NCBI GenBank assembly: GCA_947446645.1
Contig: CANFHA010000014.1
Span: 1 to 64,000, forward strand
DNA: 64,000 nt
Origin: Chitinophagaceae bacterium
Lineage (GTDB): Bacteria > Bacteroidota > Bacteroidia > Chitinophagales > Chitinophagaceae
Direction of reading: 5' to 3'
The position numbers and the translations under genes are program-made. Below are positions 5,243 through 53,809 of this stretch, one piece after another. Under the pieces are notes generated by a model, which made no database searches, had not been told where the DNA came from, and saw only the letters and a list, made by a program, of their open reading frames with translations. The number at the start of each line of letters is the position of its first letter. Position 1 is the first letter of the stretch.

Positions 5243-6097
5243 ATGATCGCTATCCAAAACCTTGGCTTCAGTTATTCGCCCAAACAAAAGCTTTTTAATG
5301 GGCTCAGCCTGCAATTGCAGCGTGGACACATTTATGGCCTGCTGGGTAAAAATGGCGCAGGCAAGTCTACACTGCTTAAGAATATGGTTGGTCTGGCTTT
5401 CCCGAAGTCCGGGATCTGCACTATAAATAATATAGGTGTTTCCGGCCGCCCGGCTTCTGTGCTTGCAGATCTGTTTTTCCTTCCTGAGGATGTCTATGTT
5501 CCATCCCTTACTCCATTGGCATTTGGTAAACGAACCGGTGGCTTTTACCCTGGGTTTGATTTGGTTCAGTATACAGATCATCTCAAGGGGCTGGATATAG
5601 ACCAGAATGTACGGATGGATAAAATGTCATTCGGGCAGCAAAAAAAAGCAATGATCGCTTTTGGGTTGGCCACAAATACAAGCCTGCTGGTGCTTGATGA
5701 GCCTACGAACGGGTTGGATATTCCATCTAAAGTACAGTTCAGAAAGCTGATTGCTGCGGCGCTCACAGAAGATAAATGCATTATTATATCTACCCACCAG
5801 GTGCGTGACCTTGACAGCCTCATAGATACCGTGCTGCTGCTTAATGATGGCGATATAGCTGTGAACATGGCTATAGACGATATTGCCCGCCAGCTCACCT
5901 TTGCCACTGCAACTGATACAGCTGCCACCGACGTACTATATGAGGAAGAAAGTGTGCGTGGAAAAAAAACCATACTTCGAAACACAACTGGTCAGTATAA
6001 CAGGATAGACCTTGAACTGCTTTTCAATGCCGTTGTTACTAATGGCGAGCAAATTTCCAAACTATTAAAACAAGCCAAACATGAACCAGCAATTTAG
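5243..6097 (+). CDS. ABC transporter ATP-binding protein
   Basis: This 284-residue ATPase shows a Walker A motif GLLGKNGAGKST near residue 34, a signature-like MSFGQQKK, and Walker B LLVLDEPTNGLD followed by the switch His in STHQ. The signature is SFGQQ rather than the usual LSGGQ, as in several YtrB-type exporters. It should energise the membrane protein encoded next, whose ATG lies 17 bp inside this gene, a clear sign of translational coupling. The transported substrate is unknown. With a YtrA-type GntR gene in the operon, the system resembles the ytr arrangement of Firmicutes and many Bacteroidota, where expression often responds to cell-envelope stress. The C-terminal 70 residues after the ATPase core have no recognised domain. 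Confidence 0.92.
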   Translation: MIAIQNLGFSYSPKQKLFNGLSLQLQRGHIYGLLGKNGAGKSTLLKNMVGLAFPKSGICTINNIGVSGRPASVLADLFFLPEDVYVPSLTPLAFGKRTGGFYPGFDLVQYTDHLKGLDIDQNVRMDKMSFGQQKKAMIAFGLATNTSLLVLDEPTNGLDIPSKVQFRKLIAAALTEDKCIIISTHQVRDLDSLIDTVLLLNDGDIAVNMAIDDIARQLTFATATDTAATDVLYEEESVRGKKTILRNTTGQYNRIDLELLFNAVVTNGEQISKLLKQAKHEPAI

Positions 6098-12872: not shown

Positions 12873-13009
12873 CTGCTGCTGTGTTTCTATTTTTGGAATA
12901 CTACGGCTAACTGGGGGTCTGCTGAAGAGCCGATAGCTTTGAGCGCCAGTGCTGATGAAGACTGTCAGAGACAGGTTTTTATCGATGGTTCCGGATGCGC
13001 TGCGCTAAC

Positions 13010-13024
13010 ATCCGGAAGAACCGG
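13010..13024. repeat. 15-bp direct repeat, left copy, at the IS110 remnant
   Basis: ATCCGGAAGAACCGG here is identical to 13465-13479. It lies exactly where similarity to IS110 transposase stops. It also forms the right arm of a hairpin: TTCCGGATG at 12989-12997 pairs with CATCCGGAA at 13009-13017. Confidence 0.6.
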
Positions 13025-13223
13025 GAGCAACGTCTGTAATACCTTCGGATTGTAGCCACGCACATAGCTTATGCAATTCTGAAGTATAACAGCTAAACTC
13101 CCTCACCTGGTCTGGTGATTGGCCAATAGCTACAAAATGTTTACGGCCCCCTACATCGATGCCTGCTGCATGAGGTCGAACAATTTCCATTCGCTCATGG
13201 CTCTTTTGATTTTTCTTTTCCAT
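13025..13223 (-). pseudogene. IS110-family transposase, N-terminal remnant
   Basis: From the ATG at 13223 the frame encodes about 66 residues with the typical start of IS110 transposases: PHAAGIDVGGRKHFVAIG, including the first Asp of the DEDD catalytic set, then LCAWLQSEGITDVA. In intact proteins this continues with a MESTGVYW-like block; here it changes abruptly to PGSSGC and a stop at 13005. Full-length members have about 320-400 residues, so over 80 percent is missing, including the other catalytic residues. The break coincides with a 15-bp direct repeat. The element cannot encode an active transposase. Confidence 0.75.
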
Positions 13224-13464
13224 AATGCTACATTTAAATACAATCACCAACAGGTTGCATTTTCAACATAAAGCATTTTATCCGGGATAGCCTCGTGAGC
13301 TTCACCAATTATTGTTTCAATCGTTTCTTTTAAAAAACTAAACAACCCAAACCAGAATCCGGACCGAACTTAAAAGTGTCAGTGTTCGCGGCGGCTTTGC
13401 GATGGTGATTGATGTGTAAATTTACTGTTATCTTATATTTGTTACGGGTGCGGCCGTCTGTTGA
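13224..13464 (-). other. Non-coding leader of the IS110 remnant
   Basis: About 240 bp lie between the transposase start and the right copy of the direct repeat. In the IS110 group the region upstream of the transposase gene encodes the bridge RNA that guides target choice. This stretch is in the right place, but I see no strong long hairpins, so I only propose that it is the former left end. Nothing else was recognised here. Confidence 0.3.
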
Positions 13465-13479
13465 ATCCGGAAGAACCGG
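13465..13479. repeat. 15-bp direct repeat, right copy
   Basis: Identical to 13010-13024. The two copies bracket the IS110 remnant, and this one is only 27 bp from the end of the RiPP cluster. Confidence 0.6.
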
Positions 13480-13506
13480 CGCTTGGAATCTATATCCTTA
13501 CGCGTT

Positions 13507-14601
13507 TTAATTCTTAACCAATTTTTGTAAACCATAATATTCCACTGCTGCCTGCTTTAAGGGGTTTATACTCCATTCATCCCAAACCATTGTATAAGGA
13601 TTGTAGCCGCACTTTAGTGGTTTACTGTAAATATCGTGAGGATCTTCCACGTATGCACGGCAATCCATGCATACATGCCTAAATTCACAATCACGACACA
13701 CTTTTACTTCGTCCTTACTTATATTCCATTTTGATGTAAGTTCTTCGTTTTTTATTATCGTAAGAAGTTTGTCATCACGAATATTGCCAAATGTTTTCTG
13801 CATGCTCGGACAGTTCTTTATATTACCATCCTTATCAATCGCAATTTTCCTATTTAAACAGGTATTGTGATGTTGAGATTCAATAAAAAAATACATATTC
13901 GTAGTAAATGAATTAGGAATAAAATTACCACAACAAATTGGCTGATGAGAATTTAAGGTAGTAAAAAAAATATGCGAATTTCCATAAGAAAAATCAGAAA
14001 TTTCGCATTGCTTCAATGAACCGGTAACTGTTATTGTCGTCAATTTTAAATTTTTTACGAAAAGATTTTTTAAATCATCCAAATTGAAATAATTATCAGT
14101 TACAACGACATGCACTTCTGATATTCTTATATCATTCCCGTTAAACAACGAAATACAGTTTTCTAGGTCAGCAAATTCAATTTTCTTCGTGAATCTGACT
14201 TCTATTGCGGAACAAAAAACTGTGTCTAATTCCTTTGCGACGTGCATGATATTGTCACCATCCACACTATCAAATTCTATAATTGCATTGCTTATAAGGG
14301 ATGGTAAATCAAATTGGTCTATATCAAGCGATGGAAAATTTTCTATTTCGTCCTCTTGACAATAAAACGCATAACCGCTTTCTATTAAAAAGTTAAAATA
14401 GTCTTGTACAATAATCCGATTTTCCAAGCCATAATACACAAGAAGGCGATCTACACTATTTGAATCAAATAAAATTGTCAAATCATATAATTCATTTGGA
14501 ATGATAGATATATTATTTTTCTGTAAATCACAAATTAAACTTCGATTAACCCCCTTTACTGGGATACAATTTGCAAAAAGTATTATGTAGTGGCAGTCCA
14601 T
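13507..14601 (-). CDS. SPASM-domain peptide maturase, grasp-with-spasm type
   Basis: The 364-residue protein has the SPASM cysteine pattern in its C-terminal third: Cys248 (HNTCLNRK), Cys264 (IKNCPSM), then C302-x2-C305-x5-C311-x2-C314 (CRDCEFRHVCMDC) and Cys331. These should bind auxiliary 4Fe-4S clusters. The N-terminus (FANCIPVKG, then SLICDLQ) lacks the CxxxCxxC motif of radical SAM enzymes. That combination, beside an ATP-grasp gene, matches the 'grasp-with-spasm' systems of Bacteroidota, where this protein is thought to help mature a ribosomal peptide. It is last in a four-gene operon, 40 bp after the SGNH gene. The coding sequence is clearly more AT-rich than the surrounding housekeeping genes. 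Confidence 0.82.
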   Translation of the reverse strand: MDCHYIILFANCIPVKGVNRSLICDLQKNNISIIPNELYDLTILFDSNSVDRLLVYYGLENRIIVQDYFNFLIESGYAFYCQEDEIENFPSLDIDQFDLPSLISNAIIEFDSVDGDNIMHVAKELDTVFCSAIEVRFTKKIEFADLENCISLFNGNDIRISEVHVVVTDNYFNLDDLKNLFVKNLKLTTITVTGSLKQCEISDFSYGNSHIFFTTLNSHQPICCGNFIPNSFTTNMYFFIESQHHNTCLNRKIAIDKDGNIKNCPSMQKTFGNIRDDKLLTIIKNEELTSKWNISKDEVKVCRDCEFRHVCMDCRAYVEDPHDIYSKPLKCGYNPYTMVWDEWSINPLKQAAVEYYGLQKLVKN

Positions 14602-14641
14602 AACGATATTGTTAAATAAATATTTTATTAATAAAAAATTC

Positions 14642-15769
14642 CTATCGCATATTATCGACTAAAAGACGAATTTGTTTCGCTTCTGTCTTATTTAAGTTCG
14701 CCGAATATTTTATATTTGATATTTTCTCATGTGTTAGAGCCTTATAAAACATGCAAGCGATTAAATATACACCTTGTTCGGACGGATGATCATCATGTTT
14801 ATTTAAATAAAGATTAATCTTTGGGTAGATACTTTTACATTCTTCAAAAGCAAGACCGATTTTTACAACATTTGCATCAATACCTTTTGCTAGTTTATCA
14901 CATTGTAACTCAATTTCTTTAAATTCTTGTTTAGAACTGATAAAACTATCCGAACAAAAAATTGTATCTCTTTGCCTTATATATATATTCTCATTGGGAT
15001 AAAAAGCAAATTCCTTTAAAATATAACCGAATGAATCAATTGTTAAACAAGTTTTATGCGATCGTTTTATCTTTGGATCATATTGTCCAGCATAAGGCTG
15101 GAAAAGTAGGGTTTTACCATTTTTCGATTTAATAATACTATCTAACCAAACTAAAGCATATTTAGTTGAATACATTCTAATACCAGGAACAACAAGACTA
15201 GCTGAATTTTCCTGTAAAACCACTATATCCCAATTTCTACTCAATATTTTTTTAACAGTAGAGGGCGTTTCGAATTCATCGGCACGACGAAAAACTTCAT
15301 TGCTACCATCAGTGCCAATATATGTCGCATGTATTGTTAAAGTCGAGCCACCAAATGCAACTTTGTCAATGTTAATGTTTTTTTTTGTTTCATTTAGCAT
15401 GTTTTGGAGGATCATTGGCATCCTATTATTATGTGGATATTCAGGGTTATTCTTTGAATCAAAATAGGTTAAACTATTCCCGATAAATAAAACATTTTTT
15501 TTACTTTGCCCATATAAAAATGTATTGAAAAACGATAAAAATATTGAAATAACAAATATAAATTGTTTATTTCTTGAAATTTGTTTGTATAAATATTCAA
15601 TGTGAAATTCGCCACTGCCCAAAAATGGCATCTTGATTTTTTTCACAAATGCTTGGCGCGGTGCTTGTTTCATTTTAATCAAAGTAATATTTTCAGCTTT
15701 CAATAATAAACTTTTAGATTCCCTTGAAATAGAATCAATGTCATTGATATTATTATTTTTGTCGTCCAT
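14642..15769 (-). CDS. Membrane-anchored or exported SGNH (DUF4886-like) hydrolase in RiPP operon
   Basis: The catalytic part begins near residue 92 with VLFIGNSLTYF (nucleophile Ser), continues through AFGGSTL and IVVLQENSA, and ends with DDHPSEQG, carrying the Asp-His pair of the SGNH fold. It is similar in layout to the T9SS-exported protein at 50267. Before it lies an unusual 70-residue polar stretch and one hydrophobic helix (about residues 70-89, ending LYGQ). If translation starts instead at ATG 15631 (residue 47), the helix would be a more normal signal peptide. It sits 3 bp after the ATP-grasp gene and 40 bp before the SPASM gene, so it belongs to the RiPP operon. It may act on the peptide product or be a passenger. 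Confidence 0.75.
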   Translation of the reverse strand: MDDKNNNINDIDSISRESKSLLLKAENITLIKMKQAPRQAFVKKIKMPFLGSGEFHIEYLYKQISRNKQFIFVISIFLSFFNTFLYGQSKKNVLFIGNSLTYFDSKNNPEYPHNNRMPMILQNMLNETKKNINIDKVAFGGSTLTIHATYIGTDGSNEVFRRADEFETPSTVKKILSRNWDIVVLQENSASLVVPGIRMYSTKYALVWLDSIIKSKNGKTLLFQPYAGQYDPKIKRSHKTCLTIDSFGYILKEFAFYPNENIYIRQRDTIFCSDSFISSKQEFKEIELQCDKLAKGIDANVVKIGLAFEECKSIYPKINLYLNKHDDHPSEQGVYLIACMFYKALTHEKISNIKYSANLNKTEAKQIRLLVDNMR

Positions 15770-15772
15770 AAA

Positions 15773-16711
15773 TCAGTCATTTTTTTTTGCCAAATAATTA
15801 GCAATTTTTTTTTCGAGTTGGTAATTGCAAAAATATGAAACGTTTTCAAATATGCCATCGGGATTTACTTCTAAAAAAACGAAATGTCCATCTGTTGATT
15901 TTATTATATCAATTGAACAAGTATTTAATTGAAGTTTTTGCATTAAATCGAATAGCTTTTGTTCAATTATTTTGGGCAATTTATAAGGAACATACCTGTT
16001 ACACAAAAAACTTTTTCTATTATCAATTGATTTCTCATCATTTTTAGAGAATATCGCCATAGAATAGAATTCATTTATCAAAAAAAAACTTCTTATTTCA
16101 TACTGTTTTTCTATGTAATTTTGAAAAATATTTGGAAAAAATGATTCAGGAAGGGAATTTACCTTCACCAATGATGAATAAGAATTAATAATAAGATTAT
16201 TAATTGTATAAGAGAAAAACTTTGATCCAGATTTTATCAATAGGCTCTCGTCTCCAAAGCATAACAAGGAATCAGAATTTGTTGCAACTAAAGTATTGGG
16301 AGTTGATAATCCGCATAACTCAGCACACCGCAAAACATATAATTTATTTATTTCCGATTTAAATATCGAGCCAATTGATTTCTTTTTTTCTAATAAATAA
16401 TATATGTAAGAAATGTAGCTGCCGATCTCATTTTTACCAAAATCTCTTATATAATTTATTAACGGGCTTTGTTGATAACAATCAATAATGTTGTTCTCAA
16501 TATTTAGCTGTCCTCTCCGAAACCAATATGAGGAGATTTTGTCACTACTAATATTTTGCTCTCTAAAAATTGTAAATTCATTAATGCTTAGTTGAATAAT
16601 AGTAGAAATATCAGAATTCTGAATGACTATTGGGTGTGCGTTTTTTAAATACAAATACCTCACTACGGTATTTACACTTTTGTCAACCCCATCAGATAAT
16701 ATCAACACCAT
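15773..16711 (-). CDS. ATP-grasp peptide maturase, grasp-with-spasm type (graspetide synthetase-like)
   Basis: A 312-residue ATP-grasp protein. It opens with a pre-ATP-grasp-like segment (MVLILSDG, then NAHPIVIQ), has YWFRRGQ near residue 65 as in other members of this group, and its C-terminal third contains CSIDIIKSTDGHFVFLEVNPDG, the metal-binding end of the ATP-grasp fold. These enzymes activate Asp/Glu side chains with ATP and join them to Ser/Thr hydroxyls or Lys amines, giving omega-ester or omega-amide macrocycles. The precursor gene ends 10 bp upstream, and the SGNH gene begins 3 bp downstream. AT-rich throughout. The grasp-with-spasm assignment rests on sequence pattern and context and needs a profile check. 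Confidence 0.82.
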   Translation of the reverse strand: MVLILSDGVDKSVNTVVRYLYLKNAHPIVIQNSDISTIIQLSINEFTIFREQNISSDKISSYWFRRGQLNIENNIIDCYQQSPLINYIRDFGKNEIGSYISYIYYLLEKKKSIGSIFKSEINKLYVLRCAELCGLSTPNTLVATNSDSLLCFGDESLLIKSGSKFFSYTINNLIINSYSSLVKVNSLPESFFPNIFQNYIEKQYEIRSFFLINEFYSMAIFSKNDEKSIDNRKSFLCNRYVPYKLPKIIEQKLFDLMQKLQLNTCSIDIIKSTDGHFVFLEVNPDGIFENVSYFCNYQLEKKIANYLAKKND

Positions 16712-16721
16712 AGATTATATT

Positions 16722-17135
16722 TTAATAAAACCACAATGTTCTCACAGAAGGCTCGCCTGCCCATACATCACCCCAATATGTTCCACCACCATGCTGCGTC
16801 CCTGTTTTTTCATCATAACTGCACCACCATGTGGTATATCCTGTGCCGCCACATGGATTGTCATAACCTCCGGTCCACGTCTTGCCTTGAACTGGGCCTA
16901 TTGGAGTAATAGTTGGAATCGAAGAAATATTACGGTTTGGGTTTCCTGCAATGTTCGGGTCCACGCAACTATTAATAATACTACTTTCCGATCCTTTAAA
17001 AATGTCTATCATATTGTTTGAAAAATCATCTATTGCTTTTTTAATCAATATATGTTCTTTGCAGACATTCAAATCGGCAATTTGGTTATTCTGGACATTT
17101 CCATCTTTAGGGGAATTTAATAATTGCTTTTTCAT
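16722..17135 (-). CDS. Candidate RiPP precursor peptide for the grasp-with-spasm system
   Basis: A 137-residue protein with no signal peptide. It begins MKKQLLNSPKDGN, has a polar helical N-terminal part up to about residue 60 (a plausible leader), then a Pro/Asn/Ile linker, and a C-terminal 50 residues rich in Gly, Trp, Thr, Tyr, Asp and Glu, with CGGTGYTTWWCSYDEKTG and HGGGTYWGDVW, ending LWFY. Thr/Ser beside Asp/Glu is what an ester-forming ATP-grasp enzyme needs. It is first in the operon, just before the maturase, the usual precursor place. It is much longer than typical precursors of this class. It could instead be an unrelated small protein. Confidence 0.65.
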   Translation of the reverse strand: MKKQLLNSPKDGNVQNNQIADLNVCKEHILIKKAIDDFSNNMIDIFKGSESSIINSCVDPNIAGNPNRNISSIPTITPIGPVQGKTWTGGYDNPCGGTGYTTWWCSYDEKTGTQHGGGTYWGDVWAGEPSVRTLWFY

Positions 17136-17234: not shown

Positions 17235-18056
17235 TTAAATTGGATAACTTAAGTTTACTCCTTCTACAGTAATTGCAAAGCTTTCCGCATTTTCTGTAGA
17301 GGCGCCCAGAATAAGGCCGTGCTGCAGGTAAAAATTCATGTCAATGACTTGTTTGAAAGACGGATCGAAACTGGATTGCGCGGTTTGCGGGATCCACACC
17401 TCGCGCATGAGCACCAACTTATTACCACTGCCTATAAATATCCTTACCACGCCCTCATGCGTACTTGCCAGGGCCTTAATGGTAATGGATCTTACAAACG
17501 CACCGCAAAGGCCAGCACCGGCATTGAAAATACTAACAATGGCGCCTGAGCCATTCCTATCAGGATTGGCAACTGATATTTGCGCGACACCTGTGTTTGC
17601 AGTACCCTGCGCAAAGCTGCAACAATCGGGAGGCAGCGTTTCTTTGTAGTTCCAGGAGACTGCTTCCACTATTATATTGAATGCACCAGCATTTTGGGTA
17701 GATGCATATATCTTATCGCCGGTGTTTAATAACAGTTCCCCCTCAAGCACAGTCTCAAACATCAGGTATTTGGGTGTGGGCAGCGGTACAACAGCAGCTT
17801 CGGGATGCGCAGGAACCGGTACCTCGCGGTAAAGAGCCAGCGGGCCAGCGCCCCGACTAATAAAGAGGCGAACCATGCCAGCCTGCACGGGTGCTATAGC
17901 CTTGACAGTGATGGAGCGCACCCGAACGGACTGTGCAGCGGTGAATACCAATACGCTACCTGTACCATCGAGGTAAGGACTGCCATCTTTTGTAGCCCTG
18001 ATGCCTGTGGCAGCAAAGCGGTGAGCGTAGTCGTTTTTACAGGTGCTAATAGTCAT
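17235..18056 (-). CDS. Two-fold repeat beta protein of unknown function, paralog B
   Basis: The 273-residue product has no signal peptide and is built of two similar halves of about 130 residues. Each has SITVKAIAPVQAGMVRLFI or SITIKALASTHEGVVRIFI, then LYREV or LMREV, and an end block ASTQNAGAFNIIVEA or ASTENAESFAITVEG. A CC pair (PDCCSF) marks the joint. It is a paralog of the protein encoded immediately upstream at 18179-19018, in the same orientation with a 122-bp gap. The alternating hydrophobic pattern suggests beta-sandwich modules, as in some structural or carbohydrate-binding proteins, but I know no function. I believe similar proteins exist in related bacteria. Confidence 0.75.
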   Translation of the reverse strand: MTISTCKNDYAHRFAATGIRATKDGSPYLDGTGSVLVFTAAQSVRVRSITVKAIAPVQAGMVRLFISRGAGPLALYREVPVPAHPEAAVVPLPTPKYLMFETVLEGELLLNTGDKIYASTQNAGAFNIIVEAVSWNYKETLPPDCCSFAQGTANTGVAQISVANPDRNGSGAIVSIFNAGAGLCGAFVRSITIKALASTHEGVVRIFIGSGNKLVLMREVWIPQTAQSSFDPSFKQVIDMNFYLQHGLILGASTENAESFAITVEGVNLSYPI

Positions 18057-18178: not shown

Positions 18179-19018
18179 CTATATAGGGTATGTCCAGTTT
18201 ATGCCTTCTACGGTGATGGCGAAGCTTTGGCTAATGTCGGTAGATGCGCCGATGAGGTAGCCTGGCTGCAGGTTATAATTCATATTGAGCACCTGCTTGA
18301 AGGATGGCTCAAAAGCGGACTGAGTGGACTGAGGAATGGAAATTTCCTGCATCAGATACCACTTAGGAGTGCCACTGTCGTCGCTTATAAACAAACGCAC
18401 TGTGCCCGGATTAGTGCTTTGCAGGGCCTTAATGGTAATAGAACTTATGGTAGCGCCATTGGCAGCGGCATCTGCCGTGAACAGGGGAACGATGGTGCCT
18501 GAGCCATTTAAAGCAGCATTGGCAACAGAAACCACACCTACACCAGTGTCGGCTGCTTCCTGCTCAAAATTGCAGCAGGAATAAGGCAATGTCTCGGGAT
18601 AGGTCCAGTCGAGCGCCTCTGTGATAATATTGAATGATTCTGCGTTTTGAGTAGAGGCCCTTAGTTTAAAGCCGCTCGGGAGCTTCAAGGTGCTATTGAG
18701 CATTAACTCAAACATGGTATACTTAGGAACCGGCAGCGGCACTGCAGCAGCCTGAGGCTGAATATCGACCGGAACCTCCTTGTAAAGGACTACGCTGGTG
18801 CCATTGTCTATAAAAAGCCGAACCATACCCTGGGTAACCGGCTCTATAGCTTTAATGATAACGGACTTAACAATAGTACCGTTGGTGCCGCCGGCTGTGA
18901 GCACTACCGTGGTGCCAGTACCGGCCAGACTGGAATTGGCGGTGTCTATAGTGACCATACCTGTATTAGCTGTGAGCAGGCTGTAGTCGTTAGCATCGTC
19001 CATATTGTTTTGACACAT
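18179..19018 (-). CDS. Two-fold repeat beta protein of unknown function, paralog A
   Basis: The 279-residue product begins MCQNNMDDANDYSLLTANTG and, like its neighbour, consists of two related halves. Half one has SVIIKAIEPVTQGMVRLFI, LYKEVPV, and ASTQNAESFNIITEALDWTYPE. Half two has SITIKALQSTNPGTVRLFI, LMQEISI, and a last block ending ITVEGINWTYPI. A CC pair (YSCCNF) joins them. No signal peptide or membrane helix, so it is presumably cytoplasmic or exported by an unknown route. It faces the response regulator gene at 19285 across an intergenic region with several inverted repeats, which suggests shared control. Function is unknown. Confidence 0.78.
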   Translation of the reverse strand: MCQNNMDDANDYSLLTANTGMVTIDTANSSLAGTGTTVVLTAGGTNGTIVKSVIIKAIEPVTQGMVRLFIDNGTSVVLYKEVPVDIQPQAAAVPLPVPKYTMFELMLNSTLKLPSGFKLRASTQNAESFNIITEALDWTYPETLPYSCCNFEQEAADTGVGVVSVANAALNGSGTIVPLFTADAAANGATISSITIKALQSTNPGTVRLFISDDSGTPKWYLMQEISIPQSTQSAFEPSFKQVLNMNYNLQPGYLIGASTDISQSFAITVEGINWTYPI

Positions 19019-53122: not shown

Positions 53123-53809
53123 CTACACCCCGGCCGCGCTTATTTCCTTCACCTGCCCCTGCTCTACTCTCACTACCCGTGCGGGGTACTTTTGTATAAT
53201 AGTATAGTCATGTGTAGCCATAATAAACGCCGTCTGAAAATCGCGGCATATATTGAACAGTAGCTGCATTATTTCATCAGTCGTGTCAGGATCCAGGTTC
53301 CCGGTAGGCTCATCCGCAAGTATCAGCTTTGGGTTATTGAGCAAGGCCCGCGCTATGTCCACACGCTGCTGCTCCCCGCCTGACATTTCGTGAGGCATCT
53401 TACTACCCTTATTCTTTAACCCCACTTTTGTCAGCACATTCTCAATCTTCTCCTTCATCAGCGCCTTATCTTTCCAGCCAGTCGCCTTCAATACAAACTC
53501 AAGATTGTCATATACATCCCTGTCCGTCAACAACCTGAAGTCCTGGAACACAATGCCCAGGTTTCTCCGGAGCAACGGTATTTTTTGCCAGGTGAGATCT
53601 TTAAGATCAAATCCAGCTACATTGCCCTGCCCTTCCTTAAGATAAATATCACCATACAGTGTCTTCAACAGGCTTGACTTACCGCTGCCCGTTCTTCCTA
53701 TCAGGTAAATAAATTCACCTTTATCTACTTCCAGGTTCACATTACTAAGTATCAGGCTATTGCCCTGGTATATATTAGCCTGCGATAGTGATACTATATT
53801 CTGGTCCAT
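53123..53809 (-). CDS. ftsE: Cell division ATP-binding protein FtsE
   Basis: The 228-residue ABC ATPase has Walker [13 protein letters not shown], signature MSGGEQQRV, and Walker [16 protein letters not shown], with the FtsE-type [14 protein letters not shown] between. With FtsX it controls peptidoglycan hydrolases at the division site. No ftsX is in the window, as is usual in this phylum. A TATCTTTG element lies about 17 nt before the ATG. It is separated from the M43 protease gene upstream by a terminator. Confidence 0.9.

Follow-up and report, generated by a model that had tools for sequence, protein, structure and literature searches.

Grasp-with-spasm (gws) systems correspond to the 'branch 5' graspetide loci of Makarova et al. 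2022 (PMC8939145), where a GG-motif precursor is given as typical of the branch and an 'LPL' adaptor is predicted to be a PqqD-like chaperone. Export genes of the C39-ABC or HlyD type are frequent in gws systems and are not universal. To our knowledge, few gws products are known. This study concerns a gws locus for a ribosomally synthesized and post-translationally modified peptide (RiPP) in a 64,000-nucleotide stretch of DNA from a Chitinophagaceae bacterium (GenBank assembly GCA_947446645.1, contig CANFHA010000014.1, positions 1 to 64,000), which as a whole is called the window. The assembly is 98.4% complete and the genome measures 4.7 Mb. The window shares with other gws systems the ATP-grasp gene gwsG, the SPASM gene gwsS, an LPL-type adaptor in the usual place and a small gene upstream of gwsG. 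It differs from them in that the adaptor is fused to an SGNH esterase, a GG leader is missing, no C39-ABC/HlyD gene lies nearby and a pair of predicted jelly-roll (JR) genes stands upstream. Our preferred reading is a six-gene RiPP unit, JR1-JR2-precursor-gwsG-(adaptor::SGNH)-gwsS, in which the JR proteins would act as scaffold or carrier and replace the C39 exporter; we give it a probability of about 45%. The features, with protein lengths in amino acids (aa), are as follows.

18179-19018, minus strand: JR1, 279 aa, two predicted jelly-roll repeats, without a signal-like stretch; 53% identity to JR2; AlphaFold2 (AF2) model of repeat 1 with a predicted local distance difference test (pLDDT) score of 85
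17235-18056, minus strand: JR2, 273 aa, JR family; 99 bp before the precursor
16722-17135, minus strand: presumed precursor, 137 aa, by its position between JR and gwsG; N-terminal MKKQLLNSPKD motif
15773-16711, minus strand: gwsG, graspetide-type ATP-grasp ligase, 312 aa (TIGR04192, 224.9 bits; 26/28 conserved positions)
15572-15769, minus strand: LPL-type adaptor part of the fusion, residues 1-66, by motif, position and adaptor profile
14642-15571, minus strand: signal helix and SGNH/DUF4886 esterase part of the fusion, residues 67-375 (PF16227, 4i8i fold match, Ser99/His328)
13507-14601, minus strand: gwsS, SPASM-domain peptide maturase, 364 aa (TIGR04193, 323.4 bits; 15/15 conserved positions)
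13005-13479, minus strand: IS110-like remnant bracketed by a 15-nt direct repeat, a neighbour outside the system (NF033542 and the repeat)

The family profiles place the locus securely among the gws RiPP loci. The initial annotation had taken an ATP-grasp and a SPASM protein for a gws pair and had proposed searches with TIGR04192 and TIGR04193; the searches bore this out. gwsS passed TIGR04193 (NCBIfam cut-off 175 bits), and the best NCBIfam match of gwsG, over its full length, was TIGR04192, just under the cut-off of 230 bits, followed by MvdC and MvdD. Conserved positions were defined as those kept in at least 90% of homologues; all were retained in gwsS, and gwsG departed from them at W19Y and Q287I. 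No other match to either profile was found in the 4.7-Mb genome. The radical-SAM motif CX3CX2C was absent from the window gwsS and from 64 of 64 full-length gwsS proteins, which rules out gwsS as a radical SAM enzyme, the term applied to its family in a figure legend of PMC8939145. In the order sample, 38 of 298 genomes had a TIGR04193 match (21 of them above the cut-off), and in the class sample 42 of 395 did (28 above it); the two samples overlap in genomes. Around selected gws matches, 72 stretches of differing length were fetched, in which lists of open reading frames (ORFs) stand in for gene calls. With the window counted, 73 rows of gwsG/gwsS pairs and 69 distinct ATP-grasp genes in 65 loci were obtained, and the co-occurrence of the two enzymes in other genomes was thus confirmed. 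The ORF coordinates also agreed with the annotated minus-strand operon, with gaps of 10, 3 and 40 bp between the precursor, gwsG, the fusion ORF (14642-15769 as a whole, minus strand, 375 aa) and gwsS, all four intact. The extent of four genes was incomplete: these ORFs are real, and the unit probably extends upstream to the two JR genes.

JR1 and JR2 lie in tandem on the same strand as the gws genes and carry two repeats each. In four other loci (L110, L118, L122 and L126), JR homologues immediately precede the small gene that comes before gwsG, and a JR fragment lies near gws in L223 (genome G689, of this genus). JR was first met in loci chosen for gws, and the tally over class genomes is the cleaner figure. 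In that sample, JR was present in 10 of 395 genomes, five of which also had a TIGR04193 match (G000, the genome of the window, G372, G439, G523 and G659), and the two were adjacent in 5/5. The association had a P of 0.0018, or 0.0087 without the query genome. JR lies beside LanC and LanB in G537 and G622, and another JR array of G523 also neighbours LanC/LanB. JR pieces stand beside small ORFs with no recognised enzyme in G501, and the JR places of G443 and G613 are single-domain and phage-like. In the order sample, JR occurred in 2 of 298 genomes, the query and G167; in the latter, JR neighbours LanC/LanB, and a further fragment lies on a different contig. The LanB/LanC assignments come from Pfam matches far above the cut-off. 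In four LanB/LanC loci (L355, L356, L358 and L370), JR lies just upstream of a small presumed precursor. The gene after JR matched the class I lanthipeptide leader with 22.1 bits in L355 (cut-off 22), 19.8 in L356 and 18.5 in L358; that of L370 gave no lanthipeptide leader match. S41-family peptidases beside JR and LanC/LanB (L355:5124-6869 and L356:4809-6584) are possible leader proteases. Across these gws and LanB/LanC neighbourhoods, JR thus precedes precursors, or genes presumed to encode them, in two RiPP classes that are unrelated. The window has JR before a small precursor in common with the class I lanthipeptide clusters of Bacteroidota, and differs from them in its chemistry and in having no LanB/LanC. 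The recurring layout of the JR pair is well supported, and JR is likely a working part of the unit. No mention of a link between JR and RiPPs turned up in the literature covered, which excludes most subscription papers, and this does not prove that none exists.

A total of 67 gws loci were scanned for export genes; the stretch lengths differ, and the transporter counts are lower bounds. C39-ABC or HlyD was found within 8 kb in 0/6 gws loci with JR (the L223 fragment counted), in 1/4 loci with a second large-protein family, 'LP', and in 33/57 others (JR versus the rest, P 0.011). None lay within 8 kb of the window gwsG, and the weak ABC-ATPase matches in the window (5243-6097 and 53123-53809) are far from the locus. 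No C39 domain was found in the genome itself, by a search that was positive in 8 of 14 control genomes. The four LanB/LanC stretches with JR gave no C39/HlyD match. The LP proteins (260-327 aa) lie upstream of gwsG in four gws loci (L222:2657-3562, L044:4661-5443, L114:5762-6589 and L124:9479-10462) and had no Pfam or NCBIfam match where tested. In L222, LP is directly upstream of gwsG and may itself be a substrate.

No Pfam, PHROGs or NCBIfam family matched JR over the cut-off. An alignment query found 87 JR relatives in viral contigs, of which 80 were kept, and the JR profile identified 80 JR ORFs in 80 viral loci, mostly of about 130 aa. Seven annotated phages matched JR. Gene 55 of the Pseudanabaena phage Pam2 lies after a tail fibre gene, and gene 24 of the Rhodobacter phage RcBaka lies two genes before the holin; both are annotated as 'hypothetical protein'. 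The AF2 model of a single JR repeat was an 8-stranded sandwich (pLDDT 85). Foldseek matched this model, with modest scores, to phage capsid/cement proteins and TNF/C1q-type jelly rolls, and its top match in BFVD was a 132-residue phage protein (TM 0.75/0.85); 26 of the 30 rows in the underlying alignment were viral, and a phage fold match is thus partly expected. Hydropathy revealed no signal-like stretch in JR, and plasmids gave no JR match. By sequence and predicted fold, JR appears to be a jelly-roll family related to phage tail-region proteins such as Pam2 gene 55 and RcBaka gene 24. The phage proteins consist of one domain of about 130 aa, whereas the cellular JR proteins have two repeats, occur in tandem and stand beside small precursor-like genes.

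The presumed precursor is rich in Cys, Trp and Thr in its C-terminal half, whose guanine-cytosine (GC) content is 0.47 against 0.31 in the N-terminal half. GG pairs occur in the C-terminal half only, and there is no leader GG at the usual place. The protein matched no family in NCBIfam (precursor models included), Pfam or the other family libraries, and no homologue was found in a search that covered the fetched loci and the family libraries. Of 11 ORFs located after JR in genomes of the genus (window counted), 5 carried the motif M-x(2,5)-[LF][NH]S-x-[TK]D and 7 had it in relaxed form, compared with 0/341 control ORFs; the shuffle rates were 0.0002 (strict) and 0.002 (relaxed). Because the motif was picked after the sequences had been viewed, these counts are no more than suggestive of a tag shared by the JR-following proteins of the genus. 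The second JR pair of this genome, on contig C22 (L240:8250-13634), has an in-frame stop in one copy and is followed by a 98-aa protein with an LNSPTD start and by one of 1095 aa that matched no Pfam family above the cut-off. JR and an N-terminally tagged partner might themselves be the main system, a tail-like or adhesin-like structure whose partner is modified in place by the gws enzymes with no free peptide. The motif counts against controls would fit this, as would the range of 98-1095 aa among proteins after JR. The late choice of the motif detracts from it, and the partner in the LanB/LanC loci has or nearly has a lanthipeptide leader in three of four cases. We consider such a structure unlikely.

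The initial annotation had counted an SGNH hydrolase as an ordinary member of the cluster. This did not hold: phmmer found an SGNH gene in 0/72 of the other fetched stretches, G684 and G689 (the other two gws genomes of the genus) gave no match to the SGNH esterase, and an SGNH hydrolase is thereby excluded as a usual gws gene. In 67 of the 68 non-window ATP-grasp units (the exception is L126), gwsG and gwsS are separated by a small ORF, and in 42 of 68 K-x-[ILVAT]-[ST], often as FYKPISK, stands near its end; some of the 67 ORFs may be spurious. The small ORF fits the LPL adaptor as described in PMC8939145. The N-terminal part of the 375-aa ORF reads EYLYKQISR at its end and is followed directly by the signal helix NKQFIFVISIF. 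An adaptor profile was built from 41 free adaptors, of which at least one (L036) is a wrong overlapping ORF; it scored 16.6 bits on the first 70 residues, against 13.8 for the best of 2000 shuffles and 5.5 for the best of 537 decoy N-termini. At the position of NKQ in the fusion, free esterase relatives start with MKQ (L146, L148 and L149) or MKR (the paralogue of this genome, L145 and L147). Between the adaptor motif and the signal helix there is no ATG, GTG or TTG in frame, and the nearest upstream starts still include the motif. Because the start codon of the esterase is replaced and no in-frame start separates motif and helix, the reading of the ORF as an LPL-type adaptor N-terminus with an esterase lacking its own start codon is well supported at the sequence level. 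The same data support a join of the adaptor, through a signal or transmembrane helix, to an esterase of the periplasmic type. The fusion was not seen in the free paralogue or in the five closest public esterase relatives. In L040 and L107, a 280- or 300-aa protein with a signal-like start lies between the adaptor and gwsS, plausibly a forerunner state. In a different arrangement, L032:3198-13794 carries three tandem gws units on a single contig, and every unit has a separate gwsG, adaptor and gwsS.

The best family of the esterase part was DUF4886 (PF16227; 27.1 bits, cut-off 26.7). The AF2 model of the fusion had a pLDDT of 79, with most of the adaptor part below 70, and matched entry 4i8i of the Protein Data Bank (E 4.4e-11, TMt 0.65, root-mean-square deviation 8.3). 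Ser99 and His328 were invariant in 22 aligned rows. Family profile, fold and predicted catalytic Ser/His all assign this part to the DUF4886 SGNH esterases. It shares family and esterase fold with DUF4886 hydrolases such as 4i8i and differs by the N-terminal gws adaptor. A free paralogue with 43% identity lies on another contig of the genome. Relatives with 38-41% identity were found in five public freshwater Bacteroidetes genomes, where an alignment query was used, and 7 of the 34 other genus members also had them; five rows from the public and genus sets are identical. Among the 72 public loci of esterase relatives, none matched ATP-grasp and a single one, L181, matched SPASM, at a marginal E of 0.0008, and none of the seven genus genomes with relatives matched the window gwsS. 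In the midpoint-rooted SGNH tree, the fusion lay inside the radiation of the genus, in an 18-row clade with support of 100/99, whose fork had 94/92, just under the mark for strong support. The esterase was probably recruited within the genus, which argues against an import of the whole cluster as it stands.

Gain of the cluster by transfer had been proposed in part on base composition. The four genes are indeed richer in AT than their flanks, with a GC of about 26-33% in 1-kb windows over 13.5-17.0 kb compared with a mean of 44.9% for the whole stretch. The gws genes were below their surroundings in GC in 60 of 69 non-window rows, so low GC is a general gws trait that alone says little about transfer; the difference in the window (-0.143) is the third largest among 70 rows, near the extreme. 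With the esterase also grouping with the genus family, the proposed transfer is weakened. The gws genes can be mobile, since gwsS relatives occur on three plasmids, two of Elizabethkingia anophelis (annotated gwsS) and one of Hymenobacter, and one of the E. anophelis plasmids, L374 (NZ_CP016375.1), bears a gwsG/gwsS pair. An IS110 remnant had been described as ending 27 bp away. An IS110-like N-terminal fragment was found there, at 13005-13250, with an NF033542 score of 17.5 bits (E 0.0018), far below the cut-off of 140. The 15-nt exact direct repeat ATCCGGAAGAACCGG, at 13010-13024 and 13465-13479, brackets the remnant, and the 27 bp probably refer to the distance from its outer copy to the gwsS stop. 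The genome holds no second copy of 13000-13560.

Several observations weigh against the six-gene unit. In the genus, JR was present in 7 of 35 genomes at 10 places and lies near gws only in the window and, as a fragment, in G689; at the eight remaining places, one of them on contig C22 of this genome, no RiPP enzyme was recognised among the neighbouring proteins, and G684 carries gws and JR on separate contigs. No JR match was found in the fetched stretches of 59 of the 65 gws-pair loci (L223 is outside the 65). The GC of JR is 0.49-0.50, compared with about 0.3 for the window gws genes. The gwsG score is below the curated cut-off. The full 375-aa ORF scores just 9.8 bits with the adaptor profile (best domain 11.9), and one shuffle reached 13.8. 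The GC of JR and the eight places without a recognised RiPP enzyme, together with the abundance of JR relatives in phage contigs and the IS110 remnant close by, would suit an ordinary gws locus with the JR pair as a mere neighbour, a phage-derived family that settles in the same hotspots as RiPP clusters. Against such chance proximity, the layout of JR, small precursor and modifying enzymes on the same strand with short gaps recurs in five gws and four LanB/LanC loci, and we regard mere proximity as somewhat unlikely. The locus might also be a decaying cluster, in which the fusion is accidental and a product is no longer made. The IS110 remnant could be seen in this way, as could the gwsG score with its two changed positions, the stop in the second JR pair of the genome and the stops in gwsS of several gws loci elsewhere. 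All ORFs of the window locus are intact, the join is in frame, the conserved positions of gwsS and nearly all of those of gwsG are retained, and the esterase has kept the invariant Ser and His; decay is therefore very improbable.

In the six-gene unit, the ligase gwsG, with gwsS as its SPASM partner, would be held at the inner membrane by the adaptor and would join side chains in the precursor's C-terminal half through ester or amide bonds. The JR proteins may bind the N-terminal segment of the precursor (LNSPKD in this genus and other leaders elsewhere) and could serve as scaffold or carrier for the product instead of a C39 exporter. The esterase would then work in the periplasm, with an ester in either the product or the envelope as its substrate. 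A broader proposal is that Bacteroidota recruited a phage tail jelly-roll protein to carry, display or deliver ribosomal peptides in general, with a doubled JR that is common to graspetide- and lanthionine-type clusters, replaces the C39 leader-peptidase exporter and recognises a portable N-terminal cargo tag; in this general form we think it doubtful.

A phage-type protein common to RiPP chemistries as unrelated as these two would suggest a step of handling or delivery that has gone unrecognised, and JR together with the small ORF after it would mark precursors missed by current models. Through the fusion with the esterase, the adaptor, which has only a predicted role, is connected with the membrane and with a domain for ester hydrolysis, and this makes its role directly testable.

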